A stretch of DNA of 22,861 bases. Origin: a virus. Made by a program: the position numbers and the translations under genes. This document shows positions 934 to 20,415 of the stretch, piece after piece. Positions within the stretch are counted from its first letter, which is position 1, and each line of letters opens with the position of its first letter. The stretch lies in the IMG/VR virus record IMGVR_UViG_3300028920_000280, positions 1 to 22,861 of that record; one strand, given 5' to 3'. The notes under the pieces are model-generated. The model did no database searches. It had not been told where the DNA came from and saw nothing but the letters and a program-made list of their open reading frames with translations.

Positions 934-3171
934 CTACGAGGCTTTGGGGACTACCTTGAGCGAATCGAGGTAGGTCAACTGGGTGGAAGTCACGGTCACC
1001 AGACCACGGGTCAGCACCTGGCCGTCGTTCAGGATCAGGTTGCTGCTGGAGTCGAGGTAGTCGGTCGTCAGAACCGGAGGCGACGCGAGCGGAACCACGT
1101 ACGAACCGTCGATGGTCACGTTGGCCCAGGCCACCCCGGCAAGTCTGAGGATGGTCTGGGCGATCACGGACCAGTACAGGGACTGCCCGAACTCGCGACC
1201 ACGCAACAGGTTCTCGACAGTCGTCCGGACGGAGGTCTCGGTGGCGGTCTGGGAGAAGTTGGGCAGGACCCCCACCTCGACGGCCACCACCGCCGGCACG
1301 AGAAAGTCGTCGCCGGCCACCACCTTGACCGTCTGGGTGACCTCGTTGCGCTCCTCCAGGAAGCTCTGAAGGCTCTTGACAAGGCCCGTGGAGGGGCTGG
1401 CGTAGAACCCCGCCGCATCGCGCGCGAGGATGGGCACCGTCACCAGGTTGGCCTTGCAGTCCGCCGCCAGGAATGCGTCCACGTGGTCGTAGATTTGATC
1501 CAGGTACACCGCGACGTCCGCCGACACGTCCACGACCACCGCCAGGATGTCCGCCGTCAGGGAATACAACCCGGAAGGAGTAGCCGAATCCCCGATGGTG
1601 GACTCCATGTTCTGACGAAGCTGGTCGGCCGTGTACAGGTAGGAATCCGGCGTGGTTAGATCCAATCCGATCTCCTGGGCCTTCTCGATGATGGTCCGGA
1701 TGTATCCTGCGGTGGCTGCGTATCTGCCCGTGATGGCGAGGGCCAGCGCTCGGGCATCTCCGGAAGATCCGTCCACGGTATCGAAGTGCTGGTTGATGGA
1801 AGCGACCTCGCCCGCATTCAGCTGAGCCGTACCACCCGGACCGTACGCATCCACCTGGGCCTTTCCTGCGATCACCGCGACGTCGATGTTGTCCAGGTCC
1901 ACCCCGATGTCCACGGCATCGTTCTTGTCCTGCTGCACACCGTTCAAAGCCCCGCCCGCGTTGGTCCCCTCGATGTCGTTGGATCTGGTGGCGATCTCCG
2001 TCAGGGCCGTCTCCAGGTCCGTGAGGTCGGACGTCAGGGAGGCAAACTCGGTCTCCAGCGCCGCCACGTCCGCCGCCACCAGGACATCGGGGCCGGTGAC
2101 CAGTGCCCGGATGCCGTTGAGGTAGGTCATGAGCGCCAGGTCCGTGGACGCGGACCGGCTGGAGAGCGCCTGCGCCACGGCCACCCGCCCGAACAGGGGG
2201 TCCGCGTACGAGCCCGCGAGCGCCTCGTAGTCCTCCCGCGTCACGGCGACGTAGCGGCTCTTCCAGACCTTCGGCGCGTACGCCTTGGCGCTTTCCAGCG
2301 ACTCCGCATCGTCGCCTCCGATGGATCCGGCCGGGTTGTCGATGTTCAGATCGATCTCGGTGAAGGACACGATGAGGGGCGTCACCACCTCGCGGATGGT
2401 GTTGCGGGAGACGATCCCGGACTTCCCCCTGGAGATCACGTAGGTGACGGAGATGCTGGCCCCGGCGGTCGGGATGTTTCCCACGACCCCGTCCCCGAAC
2501 CGGATGGTCGGAGGATCGTCGTTGTATCCCAGCTCGTACTGGTCGCTGGCCTCGAACTCCAGCATGTCCTTCTCCTCCCAGGGAGTGCCGTCCACGATCA
2601 CGCTGGAGGTTCCGTAGGTCACGAAGAACCCCTCCTCGACTCGGGTCAGCTCGAAGACCTGTTTGGAGGTTCCGTCCGAGACGAACGTCTCCGTGACGGT
2701 CTCCCCCTGGTAGCAGCTGACCACGTAGTCCGCCGTGGATCCGGCCGGGATGATCACCGTCTCGAAGACCTCGAAGACGAGGTCGTCCGGACCCAGGAAC
2801 TGGAAGCCTTGCGGGATCGGCACGTTGAAGACCTGCGCCTCCACGAGCGAAACCGTCAGGTCCACGGACGAGGAGACAGCGGCTCGCATCTTGTAGCCGA
2901 GCTGCCTGCTGAGCCTCGCCACGGCCCGGCGGGTGCGGGCCGTACTAAGGAACGTGTCCGTCGCGCGCCGATCCAGGTAGAAACCCAGGGTGTCTAGCCC
3001 ATAGCCGACCATGTCCAGCAGGACGATGCCCATGGCCGACGCGGCGAAGTCGTTGTACTCGCTGGCAAACTTCACCTGGAGGTTCGCCTTCAGGTCGTCC
3101 GTCGCGGTGGGGTAGTCTAGGCCCCCGTATTTGACCTTCTGGAGCTGGGCTAGGACTTGGCTTGTGCTCAT
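934..3171 (-). CDS. Baseplate wedge protein, gpJ/gp6-like, with a large helical insertion
   Basis: A 745-aa protein starts at ATG 3171, which overlaps the gp25-like stop as ATGA. An upstream in-frame extension to 3396 lies wholly inside the gp25-like gene and is rejected. The N-terminal 300 residues look like the Baseplate_J/T4 gp6 family: early GIVLLDMVGYGLDTLGFYLD, a beta-rich middle with IRFGDGVVGNIP, then SRNTIREVVTPL. The VTREDYEALA stretch near residue 320, followed by FGRVAVAQAL, is the usual gpJ hallmark. The C-terminal half resumes with VKVVAGDDFLVPAVVAVEVGV and a repeat-like beta region. Between about residues 345 and 575 sits an alanine- and aspartate-rich, probably helical segment that seems extra to the core fold. 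In the virion this protein would form the wedge ring around the hub and link the hub to the periphery. Family call is good; limits of the insertion are approximate. Confidence 0.88.
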   Translation of the reverse strand: MSTSQVLAQLQKVKYGGLDYPTATDDLKANLQVKFASEYNDFAASAMGIVLLDMVGYGLDTLGFYLDRRATDTFLSTARTRRAVARLSRQLGYKMRAAVSSSVDLTVSLVEAQVFNVPIPQGFQFLGPDDLVFEVFETVIIPAGSTADYVVSCYQGETVTETFVSDGTSKQVFELTRVEEGFFVTYGTSSVIVDGTPWEEKDMLEFEASDQYELGYNDDPPTIRFGDGVVGNIPTAGASISVTYVISRGKSGIVSRNTIREVVTPLIVSFTEIDLNIDNPAGSIGGDDAESLESAKAYAPKVWKSRYVAVTREDYEALAGSYADPLFGRVAVAQALSSRSASTDLALMTYLNGIRALVTGPDVLVAADVAALETEFASLTSDLTDLETALTEIATRSNDIEGTNAGGALNGVQQDKNDAVDIGVDLDNIDVAVIAGKAQVDAYGPGGTAQLNAGEVASINQHFDTVDGSSGDARALALAITGRYAATAGYIRTIIEKAQEIGLDLTTPDSYLYTADQLRQNMESTIGDSATPSGLYSLTADILAVVVDVSADVAVYLDQIYDHVDAFLAADCKANLVTVPILARDAAGFYASPSTGLVKSLQSFLEERNEVTQTVKVVAGDDFLVPAVVAVEVGVLPNFSQTATETSVRTTVENLLRGREFGQSLYWSVIAQTILRLAGVAWANVTIDGSYVVPLASPPVLTTDYLDSSSNLILNDGQVLTRGLVTVTSTQLTYLDSLKVVPKAS

Positions 3172-3557
3172 GGCGACCCCAACGTGACGTTGACGCTCTG
3201 CGTCTCCTGCGTGGCGAGGACAGTGTACTGCACCGTGACCACAATCTGTCCCTCGAACATCGAATTTCTCGTCACGGACACGCTGTTTACGGTCACGCGC
3301 GGTTCCCAGCGGGAGATGCTGTTCGACACCGCCGAACGGATGTACTGCACCAACCCCGGACCATCGGGCTCGAAGATGAAGTTCAGGGCCCCGCATCCGA
3401 ACTCGGGCTGGTGGTAGCGCTCGCCCGGCTGCGTGGTGATGATCTGGACGATGGACATCTTGATCAGATCGGCGTTCGTGGCACGCTCGGGCACCGACTG
3501 GCTCCCGGCCTGAAACGGAAACGCGATGCCGATGTAGTTGATGCCGGTGCTAGCCAT
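3168..3557 (-). CDS. Baseplate wedge/sheath initiator, gp25-like
   Basis: A 129-aa protein, the normal length for the gp25/GPW family (lysozyme-like fold). Visible family features are the N-terminal IAFPF segment, KMSIVQIITTQPGERYHQPEFG at about residues 33 to 54, FIFEP at 61 to 65, and the EPR motif at residues 85 to 87 followed by alternating beta residues. The EPR motif is the conserved core of gp25-type proteins, which sit at the top of the baseplate and template the first sheath ring. The start at ATG 3557 has a GGAGG site 4 to 5 bases upstream, lying in the 9-base gap after the Leu-Pro protein. Its stop overlaps the start of the gpJ-like gene as ATGA, which suggests coupled translation of the two wedge proteins. 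Confidence 0.93.
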   Translation of the reverse strand: MASTGINYIGIAFPFQAGSQSVPERATNADLIKMSIVQIITTQPGERYHQPEFGCGALNFIFEPDGPGLVQYIRSAVSNSISRWEPRVTVNSVSVTRNSMFEGQIVVTVQYTVLATQETQSVNVTLGSP

Positions 3558-3566
3558 CCACGCCTC

Positions 3567-3938
3567 CTACGCCGCCGCGTCGAGCGGACAAGCCGGCAGC
3601 TGGGGCAGCCGGGGCAATGCGGGGAGCTTCGGCAGACCCGGCAATGCGGGGAGTCCCGGCAGTCTGGGCAACCGCAAGGCGGGAAGCTCGAAACCGGGCA
3701 ATGCGATCGTCGGGAGCCTCGGAAGCCTCGGGAGCGCCGGCAGCTTCGGGAGACCGGGAAGCGCGGGAAGCGCAGGCAGCCGGGGCAGACGCAATCCCGG
3801 AAGCTCGAATCCCGGCAGGGCTATGGTGGGCAGCCGGGGCAGCCGGGGAAGACCCGGCAATTTCGGCAGACCGGGCAGGCCCGGCAGCCGTGGAAGTCGC
3901 GGCAACCCTGGAAGCTCGAACGTGCATAGCGAAGCCAT
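3567..3938 (-). CDS. Leu-Pro repeat protein in the spike-tip position
   Basis: A 123-aa protein starting MASLCTFELP and ending LPACPLDAAA. Nearly all of residues 7 to 118 is a run of X-Leu-Pro triplets, 32 Leu-Pro steps in total, with X mainly Gly, Arg, Ala or Lys. The triplets form three longer repeats, each opening with FELP; the first two end TIALPG. One cysteine lies before the repeats and one after. Copies 2 and 3 differ at many codons (CTT/TTG/CTC/CTG, CCC/CCG/CCT, CGG/AGA), yet almost all changes are silent in this frame. That is strong evidence that this frame is translated and selected. The gene follows the spike gene by 3 bases and precedes gp25. No family is recognised. A polyproline-II-like rod or a spike-tip or hub accessory role is inference. 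A rival frame starting at ATG 3945 has a better placed ribosome site but lacks this codon signature. Confidence 0.8.
   Translation of the reverse strand: MASLCTFELPGLPRLPRLPGLPGLPKLPGLPRLPRLPTIALPGFELPGLRLPRLPALPALPGLPKLPALPRLPRLPTIALPGFELPALRLPRLPGLPALPGLPKLPALPRLPQLPACPLDAAA
3594..3920 (-). repeat. Three tandem coding repeats of the Leu-Pro protein
   Basis: Three direct repeats of 37, 39 and 33 codons lie at 3810..3920, 3693..3809 and 3594..3692. Each encodes FELP, then X-Leu-Pro triplets including a GLPKLP step and an RLPRLP or RLPQLP step. The first two are closed by TIALPG and the third breaks off before it. The DNA copies have diverged at third positions while the protein is preserved, so the duplication is not recent. 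The TIALPG units interrupt the strict three-residue period and may mark turns or register breaks. Confidence 0.85.
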
Positions 3939-3941
3939 CCG

Positions 3942-4901
3942 TCATACTTTCACCTTGATCGACTTGCTGAGCAAGCTCGGTGGCGGGGGAACGACCGGGG
4001 GAGAGGTCGGGGCTGTCGGTCCCGTCGCCACGTGCGTGTGGGACGTCAGGTAGGCCAGCAGCAACTCGCCCAGGACGGAGTGGTTGACGGCCGGCGACCC
4101 CAAGGCCACCCCTCCGGAGCCGAAATTGATCTCCTTGGCCGTGATGTTCACCGCGTTCTTGCAGATTATGTTCACGTCCCCGTCCGCCAGGCCCAGGTAG
4201 TTCTGCTCCTTGTCCTGCAACTTCAAACCCTGGTCGTCCATGACGATCTGGTTCCCGTGGCTGTCCAGGACGATGAACTGCTTGCTGTCCGTCTCGTAGG
4301 ACATCACGCACTCGCCCCCGTTCGCCAGCAGCTGGAACCCTCCGTCCTTGGTGAAACGGAGCCAGCTGGTCTTGCCCACACCGGCAGTGCGGTCCGCCGA
4401 CTTGGACGGATCGTCGAACATCTCGTCGCCGTCCTCCGGTTGATGCCACAGCAGCTGGACGAACTGCTCGTCCGGCTCGTCCGAAAAGAGAAGGGAGTGC
4501 CCCCCGCGCGACACGAACCCGCGCACGTGGGGCAGATGCTCGTCCGAATGGGAAAACTCGGAGGGCAGCGCGTCGTCGATGTACCACCCAGGGAAGTAGG
4601 CCAAGGGCCGGGCCTGATCCCCGGCGAAGAACACGACCCGGACCTTGTCCCCGATCTCCGGGGGGTAGAAAGCCCCGCGCTTGTCCCCCGCCAGGACGAA
4701 CACGGGGGTTACCCACTGGTTCAGCGCCGTGTCGTGCCCGAAGTCCTCCATCACGACCTTGATCCGGCCACGCTCCTCCGGATCTCGGTTGTCCTTCACG
4801 CGCCCCCGGTACAGGCCGGTGAACAAGCGAAAGCCCTCCTCCAGCCCGTCTTCCATGACCGTGGCAAGCAGCTTCTGTATCGTTTCGATCGGAGTGGACA
4901 T
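3942..4901 (-). CDS. Baseplate central spike protein, gp5/gpV-like (OB-fold)
   Basis: A 319-aa protein starting at ATG 4901, two bases after the hub stop. Residues about 25 to 105 match the gpV/VgrG/gp5 OB-fold: GLYRGRVKDNRDPEERGRIKV, then VTPVFVLAGDKRGAFYPPEIGDKVRVVFFAGD and LAYFPGWY. After it comes a short linker (DEHLPHVRGFVSRGGHSLLF) and a repetitive beta segment, including GNQIVMDDQGLKLQDKEQ and DVNIICKNAVNITAKEINFG, of the kind that builds the trimeric beta-helix needle. The C-terminus has a HTHVATGP stretch and a proline-rich tail. No lysozyme insert such as that of T4 gp5 is present. The protein should trimerise under the hub and be the membrane-puncturing needle. The hub lies upstream and the Leu-Pro protein downstream, where a tip protein is often encoded. 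Confidence 0.9.
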   Translation of the reverse strand: MSTPIETIQKLLATVMEDGLEEGFRLFTGLYRGRVKDNRDPEERGRIKVVMEDFGHDTALNQWVTPVFVLAGDKRGAFYPPEIGDKVRVVFFAGDQARPLAYFPGWYIDDALPSEFSHSDEHLPHVRGFVSRGGHSLLFSDEPDEQFVQLLWHQPEDGDEMFDDPSKSADRTAGVGKTSWLRFTKDGGFQLLANGGECVMSYETDSKQFIVLDSHGNQIVMDDQGLKLQDKEQNYLGLADGDVNIICKNAVNITAKEINFGSGGVALGSPAVNHSVLGELLLAYLTSHTHVATGPTAPTSPPVVPPPPSLLSKSIKVKV

Positions 4902-15722: not shown

Positions 15723-18700
15723 TCAGCACTTCGAGTAGCCGCAGCTGGCGCACTCCTCGCACCCGCCTGCCCGGTACAACGTCGCGCTGTGGCACTCGGG
15801 GCAGATGTCCGGGGGACGGAGGGAGGGGGGACCGGAAGCCTCGCAGCCGCATCCCGCCGCCACGAGGAGCCGCTCCAAAGCCTTCGCGACGGCATCCGGG
15901 ACCGAGAAGACCTTCTCCGGTCCAAACCCCGCAGGATCACCGCCCTGGATGCCCTGGAGCTGGTCTATGACGAGCTGCACCCGCCGGGTCGGAGTCACGT
16001 GGCTGTCCACCCGGAGCAGCAGGGAGATGAGCCTCGCAATGGCTTCCCGGTCGGCAGCCATGATGGTACCGCTCCGGGACACGTCCAACCAGACCTCGAA
16101 GGGCTCGTCCGTTTCCGGGTCGTACCCGAGCTTGACGTTCAGTTTCCCGACCGACGTCTGGACGGACACGGCGCGCATCGAGTAGGTGTCCTTCGGGATG
16201 GGGTGGACCTCCGGAGTGGCCTGCACCGTCTCGACCTTGTGCAGAACCTGCTTGTCCCGGCTCAGATCCCGGTAGACCGTCCCGCCCTTGCAGCCCAAAT
16301 AGTACATCCGCCGGTAGAACTGGTCGACCTGGAACACCGTGTAGGTGTGGGGCAGGTTGCTGGTCTTGCTGATCGAGGAATCCACCCAGCGCTGGATGGC
16401 TGCCTGCGTCTCGGCGTGGTCCTCCGGGGTCATGTCCATGGCCGACACGAACCAGTCCGGCAAGTCGAGCTGGAGGTTGCCGGCCGCGAGCCAATCCCGC
16501 AGGGGTGCGGCCATCTCCTTGTGCCGGCCCAGCCGACCCTCGCGCTCCCACTCCAGCCACGGGTACGCCTCCATGCCCGTGGAGGTGTCCATCATCGTCC
16601 CCACCGTCCCGGTCGGGGCCTGGCTCAGAGCGGTGACGTTCCGCATCCCGTTCTCCGCGATCTGCAACTGGAGGGATTCCGGCAGGGTCTTGATGAAACC
16701 GCTCTCGACCAGCTTCGCAGGATCGCACGCCGGGAACATGCCCTTCTCCTTTGCCAGCTGGACGGAGGTCTCGTAGGCGTTGACGCAGATGAACTTGTAG
16801 AGGCTGTCGAGGAACTCCAGGCACTCCGGGTTGGCCCCGTACCGGATGTGGCACCGGATGAGCATCTCCCCAAGACCCATGGTGCCGAGACCGATCCTTC
16901 GCTCGGATTGCTGCTGCTCGGCCTGCTGGGGAAAGGGCACCCGTGCTATGTCGATCACGTCGTCGAGGAACCTCACGCCGAGGCGTATCGTTTCAAGCAA
17001 ACCGTCCCAGTCGACGTCGGCAGGCTCCCGCATCCCGGAGCCGGTGAGGTGCCGGGCCAGGTTCAGGTGCCCCAGGTTGCAGACGGACCAAGGAGGAATG
17101 CCCTGCTCGCCGCAGGGATTGGAACAGTAGATGATCCCTTTCTCGTAGTAGTACGAGTTGGACATCCTGTTGTAGCGACCGACGAAAAACAACCCCGGCT
17201 CCGCGCTCGCGTGGGCGGCGTGGACGATCCGGTCCCACAGCTCCGCAGCCTTCAACGTGCGGACCACACGAACCGGGTAGCCCTTCCCCTTCCACTTGTA
17301 GATGTCCCCGTCCCACTCGGTATCGTATGCCGGGTGGTCGGTCTCCGGAAAGATCAGATTCCAATCTTCATCGCGCGTCACGGCCTCCATGAACTCGTCG
17401 GAGACGGCCACCGACAAGTTTGCCCCTTCGAGCCGGCCACCTTCGCGCTTGGCGTCGATGAAGTCAAGGATGTCCGGGTGCCAGTCGTAGTGCATGAGCA
17501 TCAGCGCGCCCTGCCGTGAGCCGCCCTGCTCGATCAAAGTCGTCGCGAACGCGTACAGCTCGGACCAGCACACCGATCCGCTGCTTCGCCCGTTCACGCC
17601 CTTCACATAGGAGTACTTCGGGCGCAGGCTCATCAGCGGTACACCGACACCGCCGCCGCGAGACATGATTTCTGTAAGGTGGTTGAGCGTCTCGATGATC
17701 CCGGACCTCGAATCGTGCGGTGCGGGCAGAACGAAGCACTGCTTGGTCAGGTAGCCTCGCCCGATGGTCATGGTGTGGGTTTCGCCTTCGACGCAGCAAT
17801 AGACCTTCTCCACTCGCCCCGTGGCTTTCACGGATCTGACCTGAACCGTATGCCCCCTGCCTGTCTTCTTCTTGGCTACGAACAGACGCTTGTGGTCCGA
17901 ACGAAGCAGATCGAACCCGTTGACGAAGCACCTCCGGATACGAACCACGTAGCACGGATCGTAATCCTCCCCGAAGTTGCTGCCTTTCCCCCTCAGCACC
18001 TTCGGAGGTCCGACAACCAACCCGGCTCGCGGAGCCCGCTTCGCCAGACCGCGCAGCGTTTCAAGGGAGGACTGCGTGATGGCGACTACTCCGGTTTTCT
18101 CCACATAGCCGTCTGTCGCTATGAGTCCGGAGATGAACCCTCGAAGATAGCTGGGCGACAACCGAGAATCTGGCAAGTCCTTCCACTCAGCCTTGCAACC
18201 CGTGACGTGGACACGTCCATCCTCTTTCTCCGTGACCTCGAAGCGTTCGTCGGATTCAAACCACCGACGAAGCTCCTTCTTCGGGCCAAACAGGTCCACT
18301 CGGGACTTGTGGGCGGACGTGATCGTTCCGTCTCCGAACACGATCCCGTGCCTGATTCCCTCGGCGTAATCCGGACCACCGACTTCGAGAGACGCGGGGT
18401 TCAGAGGCACCGAAAGCCCCTCCAGATCGAGAGTCTTGACCGTACGAAGCTCGTCCTTCCGCCTGCCAGCCACTAGCCACTCGTGTTCCGCCGTCGCATG
18501 AATCACGTCGCCATTGACAAAAGTGACCGCGAACAGTTCCTGCTCGCCGTAGCACGCGAACTCCGCAGGGCGGAACACGCCGCCTCGGGAGAGCACACGG
18601 GCCACCTTGCCTTCCAAATGCTTGATCGGCCACACACCGTCTTCGGTATGCACCAGGGTGTCCCCGCTCACGCAGTTGTACGGAGTCAGGAACTCCTGCA

Positions 18701-19082
18701 CCCCCGCCCCGGCCCATATCCTTCCGGCCGGAACGAAACGTTGCGAGACCAGGCGCTCGTTGAACTTGTCGCGCCACGGAAACGGATCCCCTTCGGCGGC
18801 AGCCACCGCCGACGCCACGCGGGAACAACCCGCCTGGAAATCCTCGACGGGCAGGTCGACCTGCTCCCACGGAAGGGTCAACACCTCCTCGGTCGGCTCC
18901 AGCTGCACCACGACCTTCTGCGCCTCGGACGAGACCGAAACCAGCCGGCCGAGGTATCGCTTGGAAACCTTCGTGTCCGGGCAGACGACGACCCTCTGCC
19001 CTGCTTCCAGGTGGTTGTGGTCGTGGTCCTTGGCCGCGTACCTGTCCAGAAAAATCAGCTGTCCCAGCTCGCTCAGCGCCAT
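15723..19082 (-). CDS. nrdJ: Class II (adenosylcobalamin-dependent) ribonucleotide reductase, intein-containing
   Basis: An 1119-aa precursor that would give an 807-aa enzyme after protein splicing. It makes deoxynucleotides from ribonucleotides for phage DNA synthesis. All expected active-site residues are visible: redox Cys 449 (CFVLPAPHDS), the NPCGE motif with Asn 655, thiyl Cys 657 and Glu 659, and second redox Cys 668 (CNLGHLNL). GGGVGVPL follows Cys 449, and QAPTGTVGTMMD lies near the expected phosphate loop. The C-terminus carries CPEC, then CEECASCGYSKC, the swinging cysteine tail typical of B12-type enzymes. No B-subunit gene is seen, as expected for class II. Residues about 24 to 84 form an extra beta-rich, KOW/SH3-like insertion (AGQRVVVCPDTKVSKRYLGR). 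The start at ATG 19082 has GGAGG seven bases upstream. The gene lies, unusually, between tail tube and tail chaperone genes. Confidence 0.95.
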   Translation of the reverse strand: MALSELGQLIFLDRYAAKDHDHNHLEAGQRVVVCPDTKVSKRYLGRLVSVSSEAQKVVVQLEPTEEVLTLPWEQVDLPVEDFQAGCSRVASAVAAAEGDPFPWRDKFNERLVSQRFVPAGRIWAGAGVQEFLTPYNCVSGDTLVHTEDGVWPIKHLEGKVARVLSRGGVFRPAEFACYGEQELFAVTFVNGDVIHATAEHEWLVAGRRKDELRTVKTLDLEGLSVPLNPASLEVGGPDYAEGIRHGIVFGDGTITSAHKSRVDLFGPKKELRRWFESDERFEVTEKEDGRVHVTGCKAEWKDLPDSRLSPSYLRGFISGLIATDGYVEKTGVVAITQSSLETLRGLAKRAPRAGLVVGPPKVLRGKGSNFGEDYDPCYVVRIRRCFVNGFDLLRSDHKRLFVAKKKTGRGHTVQVRSVKATGRVEKVYCCVEGETHTMTIGRGYLTKQCFVLPAPHDSRSGIIETLNHLTEIMSRGGGVGVPLMSLRPKYSYVKGVNGRSSGSVCWSELYAFATTLIEQGGSRQGALMLMHYDWHPDILDFIDAKREGGRLEGANLSVAVSDEFMEAVTRDEDWNLIFPETDHPAYDTEWDGDIYKWKGKGYPVRVVRTLKAAELWDRIVHAAHASAEPGLFFVGRYNRMSNSYYYEKGIIYCSNPCGEQGIPPWSVCNLGHLNLARHLTGSGMREPADVDWDGLLETIRLGVRFLDDVIDIARVPFPQQAEQQQSERRIGLGTMGLGEMLIRCHIRYGANPECLEFLDSLYKFICVNAYETSVQLAKEKGMFPACDPAKLVESGFIKTLPESLQLQIAENGMRNVTALSQAPTGTVGTMMDTSTGMEAYPWLEWEREGRLGRHKEMAAPLRDWLAAGNLQLDLPDWFVSAMDMTPEDHAETQAAIQRWVDSSISKTSNLPHTYTVFQVDQFYRRMYYLGCKGGTVYRDLSRDKQVLHKVETVQATPEVHPIPKDTYSMRAVSVQTSVGKLNVKLGYDPETDEPFEVWLDVSRSGTIMAADREAIARLISLLLRVDSHVTPTRRVQLVIDQLQGIQGGDPAGFGPEKVFSVPDAVAKALERLLVAAGCGCEASGPPSLRPPDICPECHSATLYRAGGCEECASCGYSKC
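17739..18674 (-). mobile_element. Intein with LAGLIDADG homing endonuclease inside NrdJ
   Basis: A 312-aa intein (precursor residues 137 to 448) interrupts TPYN/CFVLP immediately before redox Cys 449. Splicing block A starts CVSGDTLVHTEDG; block B is GDVIHATAEHEWLV with Thr 197 and His 200; block F is VYCCVEGETHTMTI with His 436. Two LAGLIDADG-type endonuclease blocks are present: HGIVFGDGT (245 to 253, Asp 251) and LRGFISGLIATDG (313 to 325, Asp 324), so the nuclease looks intact. The C-terminal block ends GYLTKQ followed by Cys: the usual His-Asn pair is Lys-Gln. Gln-ending inteins are known, for example in a viral reductase, but loss of both residues is uncommon. The endonuclease would cut intein-free nrdJ alleles and spread the element. 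Confidence 0.95.
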
Positions 19083-19143: not shown

Positions 19144-19857
19144 TCAAAACTCGAAGGTCTTGTGCTCGACCATCTCGACGCTCATCTCCAGTTCGGAGAT
19201 GGAGACATCGCCGGACGACGCGTCGAAGTCGCCGTCCATCTTGTACCGGGAGGGCAGACAGCCGTAGAGGATGTAGACCTTGGCCGGGATGCGGGGGGCA
19301 AACTCGAACTGCGGGAATCCAAGCGCACCCAACACCCCCGCCGCCACCCCTATGCTTCCGGCCACCGACAATCCCGCCACTCCCCCGGTGATGGTAGCTC
19401 CGACGCCGGCCAGCCCCGCCCGGTACGCGGTGCCTTTCAGGTCCGCGTTCGGGTCCGCAAGCGGGTTGCCCATCATCCGGGAGAAGAAGTGGACGAGCAT
19501 CATCGTGCGCCTGGGCGTGACGCCGCCGGTCCGCATGCCGGGAACGATGCCGGCGGTGAACTCCTCCGGGTCTCCCTTCAGCGACGCCATGACCCAGTGC
19601 CAGAAGTCGCTGTCGTACCAGGTCACCCCCCGCTGGAGGGTGACGGGGCCGACACTGGCCCCGGTGACCACCTTCTTGTCGAAGATCCAGTTGGCTTCGT
19701 TGATGGTCTCCGTGGTCAGGCTGATCTCCGGACCGGATATGGAGGAAAAGCCGCCGAAGGGATTGAAAATGGGGAGGGCCAGCGTGCTGATGGGTGCGAC
19801 GTCAACCAGCCAGAACGGATACTGCTGGAGGTAGTCGAATGTCCAGCTGCGGGCCAT
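19144..19857 (-). CDS. Second tail-tube-like protein with a glycine-rich insertion
   Basis: A 237-aa protein starting MARSWTFDYLQQYPFWLVDV three bases after the first tube gene. It is a paralogue of that gene: both begin MAR, share a RGV motif preceding an aromatic-W stretch (QRGVTWYDSDFWHWV here), and end with GDFDASSGDVSISELEMSVE against GDLDASTADVSVAEADVAYE. This copy has an extra Gly/Ala/Val-rich segment at residues 146 to 180 (GLAGVGATITGGVAGLSVAG and on). Tube folds of the gp19 type are reused in contractile tails for the main tube and for initiator or adaptor rings next to the baseplate, and also in injection systems with several tube paralogues. Which of the two is the bulk tube is not decided by sequence. 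The insertion makes this one the likelier special ring. Confidence 0.82.
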   Translation of the reverse strand: MARSWTFDYLQQYPFWLVDVAPISTLALPIFNPFGGFSSISGPEISLTTETINEANWIFDKKVVTGASVGPVTLQRGVTWYDSDFWHWVMASLKGDPEEFTAGIVPGMRTGGVTPRRTMMLVHFFSRMMGNPLADPNADLKGTAYRAGLAGVGATITGGVAGLSVAGSIGVAAGVLGALGFPQFEFAPRIPAKVYILYGCLPSRYKMDGDFDASSGDVSISELEMSVEMVEHKTFEF

Positions 19858-19860
19858 GCC

Positions 19861-20415
19861 TCACGACGTGAAGTCTTCGATGGTGAAGTACTCGTAGGCG
19901 ACGTCGGCCTCGGCCACCGAGACGTCGGCCGTGGAGGCATCGAGGTCGCCGGCCGGCTTCACCCGGATCGGGAAAGCCTCCTTCACCGTGTACTCCCGAC
20001 GCGGGCTGAGTGTGGCCGGGTCCTGCACCTTCAAGGGAATATCGGACGCAGGGGTCCAGCCGGTCGGCAACCCTGCCCGGTGGAACTGGTAGATGGTCAC
20101 ATCGGCCCGATACGGTTCCCCAGTTGCAATCGTCCGGATCAACCACTGGTACATCCCGGTGTCGCCAAGCACCACACCCCTGGAGAACGTCAGATCCGCC
20201 GTGGTCGGCAGACCTGGGTACTTCTGGGTGAAGATGCTGTTCCCCTCGCGGTACTCGACCGCCTCCAGGGAATACTCCGGAGTCGTGATCGACGAAAAAC
20301 CTGCCTCCGTGAAGTTCGAGTTGGTGGGTACGAGCGGGTCTCCACCTCCCGGCAACAGCGCCTTCGCGTGGAACCGGAAGGAGTGGAACAGGTCTTCGTT
20401 TGCTGGTCTCGCCAT
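19861..20415 (-). CDS. Tail tube protein, gp19-like
   Basis: A 184-aa protein, the normal length for contractile tail tubes, starting at ATG 20415 (MARPANEDLFHSFRFHAKAL) with AGGAG about eight bases upstream. Features of the family are FRFHAKALL at the start, GFSSITTPEYSLEAVEYREG near residue 40, LTFSRGVVLGDTGMYQWL near 75, and a late IRVKPAGDLDASTADVSVAE beta hairpin. Tube monomers stack as hexamer rings inside the sheath. The gene sits after sheath and the 204-aa protein and just before its paralogue, fitting the standard order sheath-tube. Confidence 0.88.
   Translation of the reverse strand: MARPANEDLFHSFRFHAKALLPGGGDPLVPTNSNFTEAGFSSITTPEYSLEAVEYREGNSIFTQKYPGLPTTADLTFSRGVVLGDTGMYQWLIRTIATGEPYRADVTIYQFHRAGLPTGWTPASDIPLKVQDPATLSPRREYTVKEAFPIRVKPAGDLDASTADVSVAEADVAYEYFTIEDFTS

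Follow-up and report, generated by a model that had tools for sequence, protein, structure and literature searches.

Three-repeat, proline-rich proteins encoded beside the central spike of contractile tails are candidate spike-tip accessories

INTRODUCTION

To our knowledge, contractile tails form their membrane-piercing end in one of two ways, either as a metal-loaded HxH apex or as a separate PAAR cone. In PAAR structures, histidines and a single cysteine form a zinc site close to the tip. Contractile systems commonly carry cargo on the spike, and CIS_tube proteins are a feature of contractile injection systems. The HxH motif of the spike binds metal in P2, phi92, and Mu (PMC10811340), and AlgoCIS provides a precedent for one chain on a trimer, with a single PAAR-like Alg10 bound to the trimeric spike tip (PMC8894135).

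Here we describe the LP protein, coded by a viral genome segment of 22,861 nucleotides (positions 1 to 22,861 of IMG/VR record IMGVR_UViG_3300028920_000280; hereafter, the window), and its relatives. PAAR and PAAR-like tips (T4 gp5.4, type VI secretion PAAR, and AlgoCIS Alg10) resemble it in being small proteins of the spike/gp25 neighborhood, and the LP protein too is proposed to act as a single chain on a trimeric spike. It differs in that it has no match to PF05488 and is built from three long proline repeats with two terminal cysteines, and with no histidine and two cysteines the window protein lacks the composition of the PAAR zinc site. The HxH iron-loaded apex systems (P2 gpV, phi92 gp138, Mu gp45, and Milano gp27) are similar in that the spike next to the LP gene also carries HxH, but there the spike makes its own tip, whereas here there is an additional conserved protein. 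The phage S16 gp38 adhesin, with its polyglycine/polyproline type II bundle, is likewise an extended, low-complexity repeat protein of the tail, as the LP protein is presumed to be, but LP proteins are composed of proline and hydrophobic residues and not glycine runs, and their prolines are spaced by 3, 5, or 7 residues with no fixed register.

RESULTS

The LP gene of the window. The LP gene (positions 3567 to 3938, minus strand) codes for 123 residues from an ATG start to a C-terminal CPLDAAA, with AAGGTG 12 bases 5' of the ATG. Leucine precedes 32 of its 33 prolines, 28 of the Leu-Pro dipeptides share a single triplet phase, and proline recurs at i+3 for 26 of the 33. The two cysteines, Cys5 (codon at 3924 to 3926) and Cys117 (codon at 3588 to 3590, within the CPLD motif), are invariant among 25 aligned family members, and between them lies a 39-residue repeat, with copies at residues 6 to 44 (3807 to 3923), 45 to 83 (3690 to 3806), and 84 to 116 (3591 to 3689, ending just before Cys117), all on the minus strand. 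Its self-identity of 81% is not reached in any of 300 triplet shuffles, and Tandem Repeats Finder (TRF) reports the array as 117 nt x 2.4. Of the codon differences between repeats 2 and 3, counted across all 39 codons of the frame, 23 are silent and 5 alter the residue (pN/pS, 0.14). The first-pass annotation had described 32 Leu-Pro steps in 123 residues, three longer repeats with single flanking cysteines, and a pattern that is actively kept, all of which agree with these data; its estimate of about 18 silent and 3 changed codons was correct in kind and low in number. Sequence-level evidence thus confirms the open reading frame as a real gene with a pattern selected at the protein level.

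The plus strand opposite the LP gene carries an open, collagen-like Gly-Ser/Arg-X frame, and the equivalent wobble-aligned frame is open in 24 of the 25 members, as would be expected if the array were a GC-rich DNA repeat without a product or if the collagen-like frame were the true gene. That frame can contain a stop only where the sense strand has a stop of its own or codes for Tyr, His, or Gln, and it stays open because LP proteins have almost none of these residues; by this coding argument, it is a shadow of the LP gene. The sense product does not have glycine at every third residue but reads X-Leu-Pro, with Gly-X-Y found only in antisense. Moreover, the sense start, the two cysteines, and the stop stay in place across the family despite GC3 values anywhere between 0.29 and 0.97, and the neighboring baseplate genes share the LP strand. 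The artefact reading is thus strongly disfavored, and we would be very surprised if it proved correct.

An undescribed protein family. A protein search followed by sub-alignment searches of viral contigs identified 32 homologues, which with the window protein make 33 distinct proteins; the family is too diverse for a single whole-family scan of the collection, and alignment subsets were searched instead. The homologues are 100 to 130 residues long, occupy the same genomic slot, and share a signature of an N-terminal cysteine followed by x-[FIL] or near and a C-terminal cysteine mostly in C-P-[LIF]-D, with both flanking cysteines present in all 25 aligned members and in all 8 found later. One near-identical pair (L016/L053) comprises an IMG/VR record and Sphingomonas sp. 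Leaf34. A cysteine-less relative (L052, 4980 to 5375) adjoins gp25 and has about three 46-residue repeats with DFGDGDGF linkers between Leu-Pro stretches. Long proline-rich open reading frames without the family signature (L014, L017, L018, L020, L022, L023, L098, and L100) were excluded and are probably antisense shadows of collagen-like genes; short LP runs within larger proteins (L004 to L006, L019, and L021) were left out of the counts. We note that L005 (4753 to 6594), L004, L006, and L021 are proteins of ∼500 to 610 residues with a short internal [LI]-P run, and that the L005 and L006 genes are flanked by a spike-like gene on one side and gp25 on the other, a T4-like arrangement.

Neither the window protein nor the other members match a describing Pfam or NCBIfam family. 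NCBIfam BAC and Pfam HIND and GLTT each match one member, all compositionally, and PDB profile matches to YopM, IpaH, and internalin-like leucine-rich repeat proteins (E ≥ 0.0036) reflect Leu-Pro composition only. The phrog_31248 profile (200 positions, function unknown) weakly matches only 2 of 21 members, one of which is the window protein (E, 1e-8), and the match is probably driven by composition. INPHARED, queried with two LP proteins and three spikes, has no annotated phage with the family, a result limited by the BLAST low-complexity filter; a profile search of 300 genomes from the order of Sphingomonas Leaf34 recovered no further copy at E ≤ 1e-8; and no description of the family was found in open-access papers. 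The initial statement that no baseplate protein of this kind has been described is consistent with the lack of a counterpart in Pfam, NCBIfam, the PDB, and INPHARED, and the LP proteins are a real, undescribed, and selected family.

Three repeats between two cysteines. Among 25 LP proteins with periods of 32 to 42 residues, the Cys-Cys distance divided by the repeat period is 2.89 ± 0.08 (range, 2.58 to 3.00), and distance and period are correlated (r = 0.93); in the eight members found after this rule was set, the ratio is 2.83 to 3.06. In 24 of 26 cases, the repeats within a protein resemble one another more than they resemble the repeats of any other protein; the three copies therefore stay alike, with between-repeat codon comparisons giving pN/pS values of 0.14 to 0.90. 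Repeat identity is weak (0.36 to 0.40) in L003, L010, L042, and L045; triplet shuffles reach the observed value 46 times in 300 for L010, which does not beat this control, and 4 and 6 times in 300 for L042 and L045, which beat most shuffles. We take these length and codon comparisons to demonstrate both the three-copy rule and purifying selection on the LP proteins.

The hydrophobic composition of the proteins, together with the frequency of spike-borne cargo among contractile systems, would also suit a passenger peptide, hydrophobic and rich in proline, that the spike delivers at injection and that is effector-like or acts on membranes. We consider this improbable, as the fixed copy number, the two cysteines, and the homogenized repeats across very diverged members are a better fit to a structural part, and the LP proteins match no catalytic or toxin family.

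The conserved pattern is (x-hydrophobic)n-Pro. Between consecutive prolines, 397 of 407 two-residue stretches read x-hydrophobic, 136 of 137 four-residue stretches read x-hydrophobic-x-hydrophobic, and all 17 six-residue stretches obey the same rule; stretches of three or five residues are rare (15), and P-x-P (122) and P-P (68) are also present. For stretches of three or more, agreement with the rule is 89%, versus 22% when the non-proline residues are shuffled. The conserved pattern is thus (x-hydrophobic)n-Pro, mostly with n = 1 to 3, and several homologues depart from the strict triplet. The rule is upheld across the whole GC3 range of 0.29 to 0.97, and the target of selection is therefore the protein rather than a repeat in the DNA. 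Spacings of 5 and 7 break the three-residue register, so the data do not call for a strict polyproline II rod with fixed faces. Two suggestions of the first-pass annotation, a conserved polyproline-type register and a basic edge of X residues, are not supported; net charge (K+R-D-E) ranges from -6 to +10 across the family. Homologues that break the Leu-Pro frame had been regarded as a possible refutation, and in the narrow sense they exist, with the broader (x-hydrophobic)n-Pro rule, the three repeats, and the two cysteines conserved instead. AlphaFold single-chain models of the window protein (21 sequences) and L043 (25 sequences) have no confident fold (pLDDT, 58 to 60; pTM, 0.14 to 0.15).

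The baseplate operon and the spike. In the window, the spike, LP, gp25, and Baseplate_J genes form one compact baseplate operon, all on the minus strand, with three bases separating the spike stop from the LP start. The central spike (3942 to 4901; 319 residues) has a Phage_base_V OB domain (PF04717; E, 6.7e-17) and spike relatives in the PDB, and the gp25-like sheath initiator or baseplate wedge gene (3168 to 3557; PF04965; E, 1e-18) is followed by Baseplate_J (934 to 3396), such that the Pfam matches on either side agree with the placement of the LP gene between spike and gp25 proposed at first pass. Near the spike C terminus, an HTH motif (residues 288 to 290; 4032 to 4040) resembles the metal-binding HxH of other spikes, and the proline-rich tail that follows, VATGPTAPTSPPVVPPPPSLLSKSIKVKV (3945 to 4031), is a candidate docking segment, its association with LP in related loci having been framed post hoc. 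The central spike is the likely partner of the LP protein. Elsewhere on the same strand of the window, two adjoining genes (19144 to 19857 and 19861 to 20415) each match the T4 gp19 tail-tube family, and by this homology the phage may have two tube proteins. A ribonucleotide reductase gene (15723 to 19082, minus strand; PF02867; E, 2e-102) is split by an insertion that resembles an intein and weakly matches LAGLIDADG_3; the insertion starts CVSGDTLVHT and apparently ends ...YLTKQ|C, with glutamine in place of asparagine.

Across the family, the LP gene directly follows a spike or spike-like gene or is one small gene away, often with an overlap of 1 to 4 bases, and a position beside a spike gene, as for PAAR, is seen in the window and in most LP loci; in about ten divergent members, Pfam does not confidently identify the upstream gene as a spike. 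At most loci, the end of the upstream spike consists of HxH, then GP[ST]xPP or a close variant, then a run rich in prolines, frequently with a basic tail (e.g., SKSVKLK). The mean number of prolines past HxH is 2.74 in LP-linked and 0.79 in LP-less spikes (P = 5e-4), and a V-x-[VLI]-[KR]-like tail is present in 15 of 19 LP-linked but 1 of 14 LP-less spikes (P = 6e-5), both comparisons being framed after looking, uncorrected for relatedness, and drawn against 14 LP-less spikes from a scan for similar tails and not a random sample. One locus (L071) is an exception, having such a spike tail with LP absent. The records of 16 LP-less loci gave no LP match at E ≤ 0.001, in a search that had no internal positive control, although this profile did recover the family in the separate search of the order of Leaf34.

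Translational coupling to the adjoining spike gene, with three equivalent segments suited to three chains, would also be expected of a nonvirion assembly factor, a chaperone holding the three spike chains during β-helix folding. Nothing specific speaks against this, except that LP-less HxH spikes evidently fold; we rate it as a marginally poorer prospect than the injected passenger. A stronger competitor, although one that we regard as distinctly on the unlikely side, is that the LP protein binds the threefold hub or spike elsewhere, as a sleeve on the shaft or at the hub-wedge site, with a role in assembly or sealing and not in piercing. The three-repeat logic applies equally there, the spike's own HxH may already make the tip, and C3 symmetry is common to hub and spike (PMC10811340), but the LP gene is directly coupled to that of the spike, and this, with the proline-rich tail common to the spikes, weakly favors the spike end.

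PAAR and other neighboring genes. PF05488 has no match among 21 LP members or in 22 records that carry LP, the complete Sphingomonas Leaf34 genome among them, in searches with positive controls, and the window protein has no above-threshold match to any Pfam family. The separate PAAR gene that the first-pass annotation proposed looking for therefore did not appear when the window and the further records with LP were searched with PF05488. PAAR is also missing from nearly all LP-less comparison records, and these data provide no contrast by which PAAR and LP could be called mutually exclusive. For many HxH spikes, LP and PAAR are both absent. The Leaf34 LP cluster includes a CIS_tube protein and the sole Phage_base_V match of that genome, and since CIS_tube is present the LP family may extend beyond phages. 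In the 109-kb contig IMGVR_UViG_3300045996_003734, two blocks of hub, spike-like, small accessory, and LP genes (L109 and L110; 38 to 44 kb and 100 to 107 kb) are 88% identical, and therefore the module moves together; each block has a 3' gene with a lipoprotein-like start.

We note that a second small gene, coding for ∼80 to 165 residues, lies beside the spike/LP pair or the spike in many loci, both LP-bearing and LP-less (L053, 8386 to 8628; L094, 3323 to 3808; L042, 4508 to 4978; L109, 2678 to 3004; and L071, 4092 to 4530). The product often reads MxLxxxxLxxxL...AAxxLAxAxxxY..., and the four tested have no Pfam match; no gene of this kind separates spike and gp25 in the window.

DISCUSSION

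Three homogenized repeats coded beside a homotrimer gene are most simply read as a single chain presenting three equivalent surfaces, and we give about even odds that the LP protein is an accessory of the central spike trimer, a single chain with pseudo-threefold symmetry that most likely caps or collars the spike tip. The chain would be extended and stiffened by proline, with its three near-equal repeats corresponding to the three identical subunits of the spike, most probably at the distal, C-terminal end of the spike. The two cysteines are about three periods apart and would meet if the chain closes around the axis; after one trip they could form a disulfide or share a metal ligand, a clamp that is plausible but unproven. 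The position beside the spike, the three repeats, and the proline-rich basic tail past HxH in LP-linked spikes all argue for a cap, whereas the many HxH spikes with neither LP nor PAAR suggest that a further tip is not generally needed. We infer contact with the spike, location at the tip, closure by the cysteines, and presence in the virion. The spike tip or plug suggested at first pass is still the best reading and is strengthened by the three-repeat rule, its location being the inferred part.

As such a cap, the LP protein would take the role of a PAAR tip, as one monomer on a trimer, although the two architectures are unrelated; in our interpretation it functions as PAAR tips do but does not belong to the PAAR family. 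More tentatively, and with somewhat greater doubt than confidence, we propose a new class of spike tip, a pseudo-threefold single-chain cap, closed Cys to Cys and built of (x-hydrophobic)n-Pro, that replaces PAAR in a broad set of uncultured myophages and in at least one chromosomal contractile injection cluster. The composition of the LP proteins is unlike that of any baseplate protein found, (x-hydrophobic)n-Pro is a simple repeat code for which current structure prediction yielded no confident fold, and the correspondence of three internal repeats with a homotrimeric partner is a directly testable rule. The LP family may represent a third solution for the membrane-piercing end of contractile tails.
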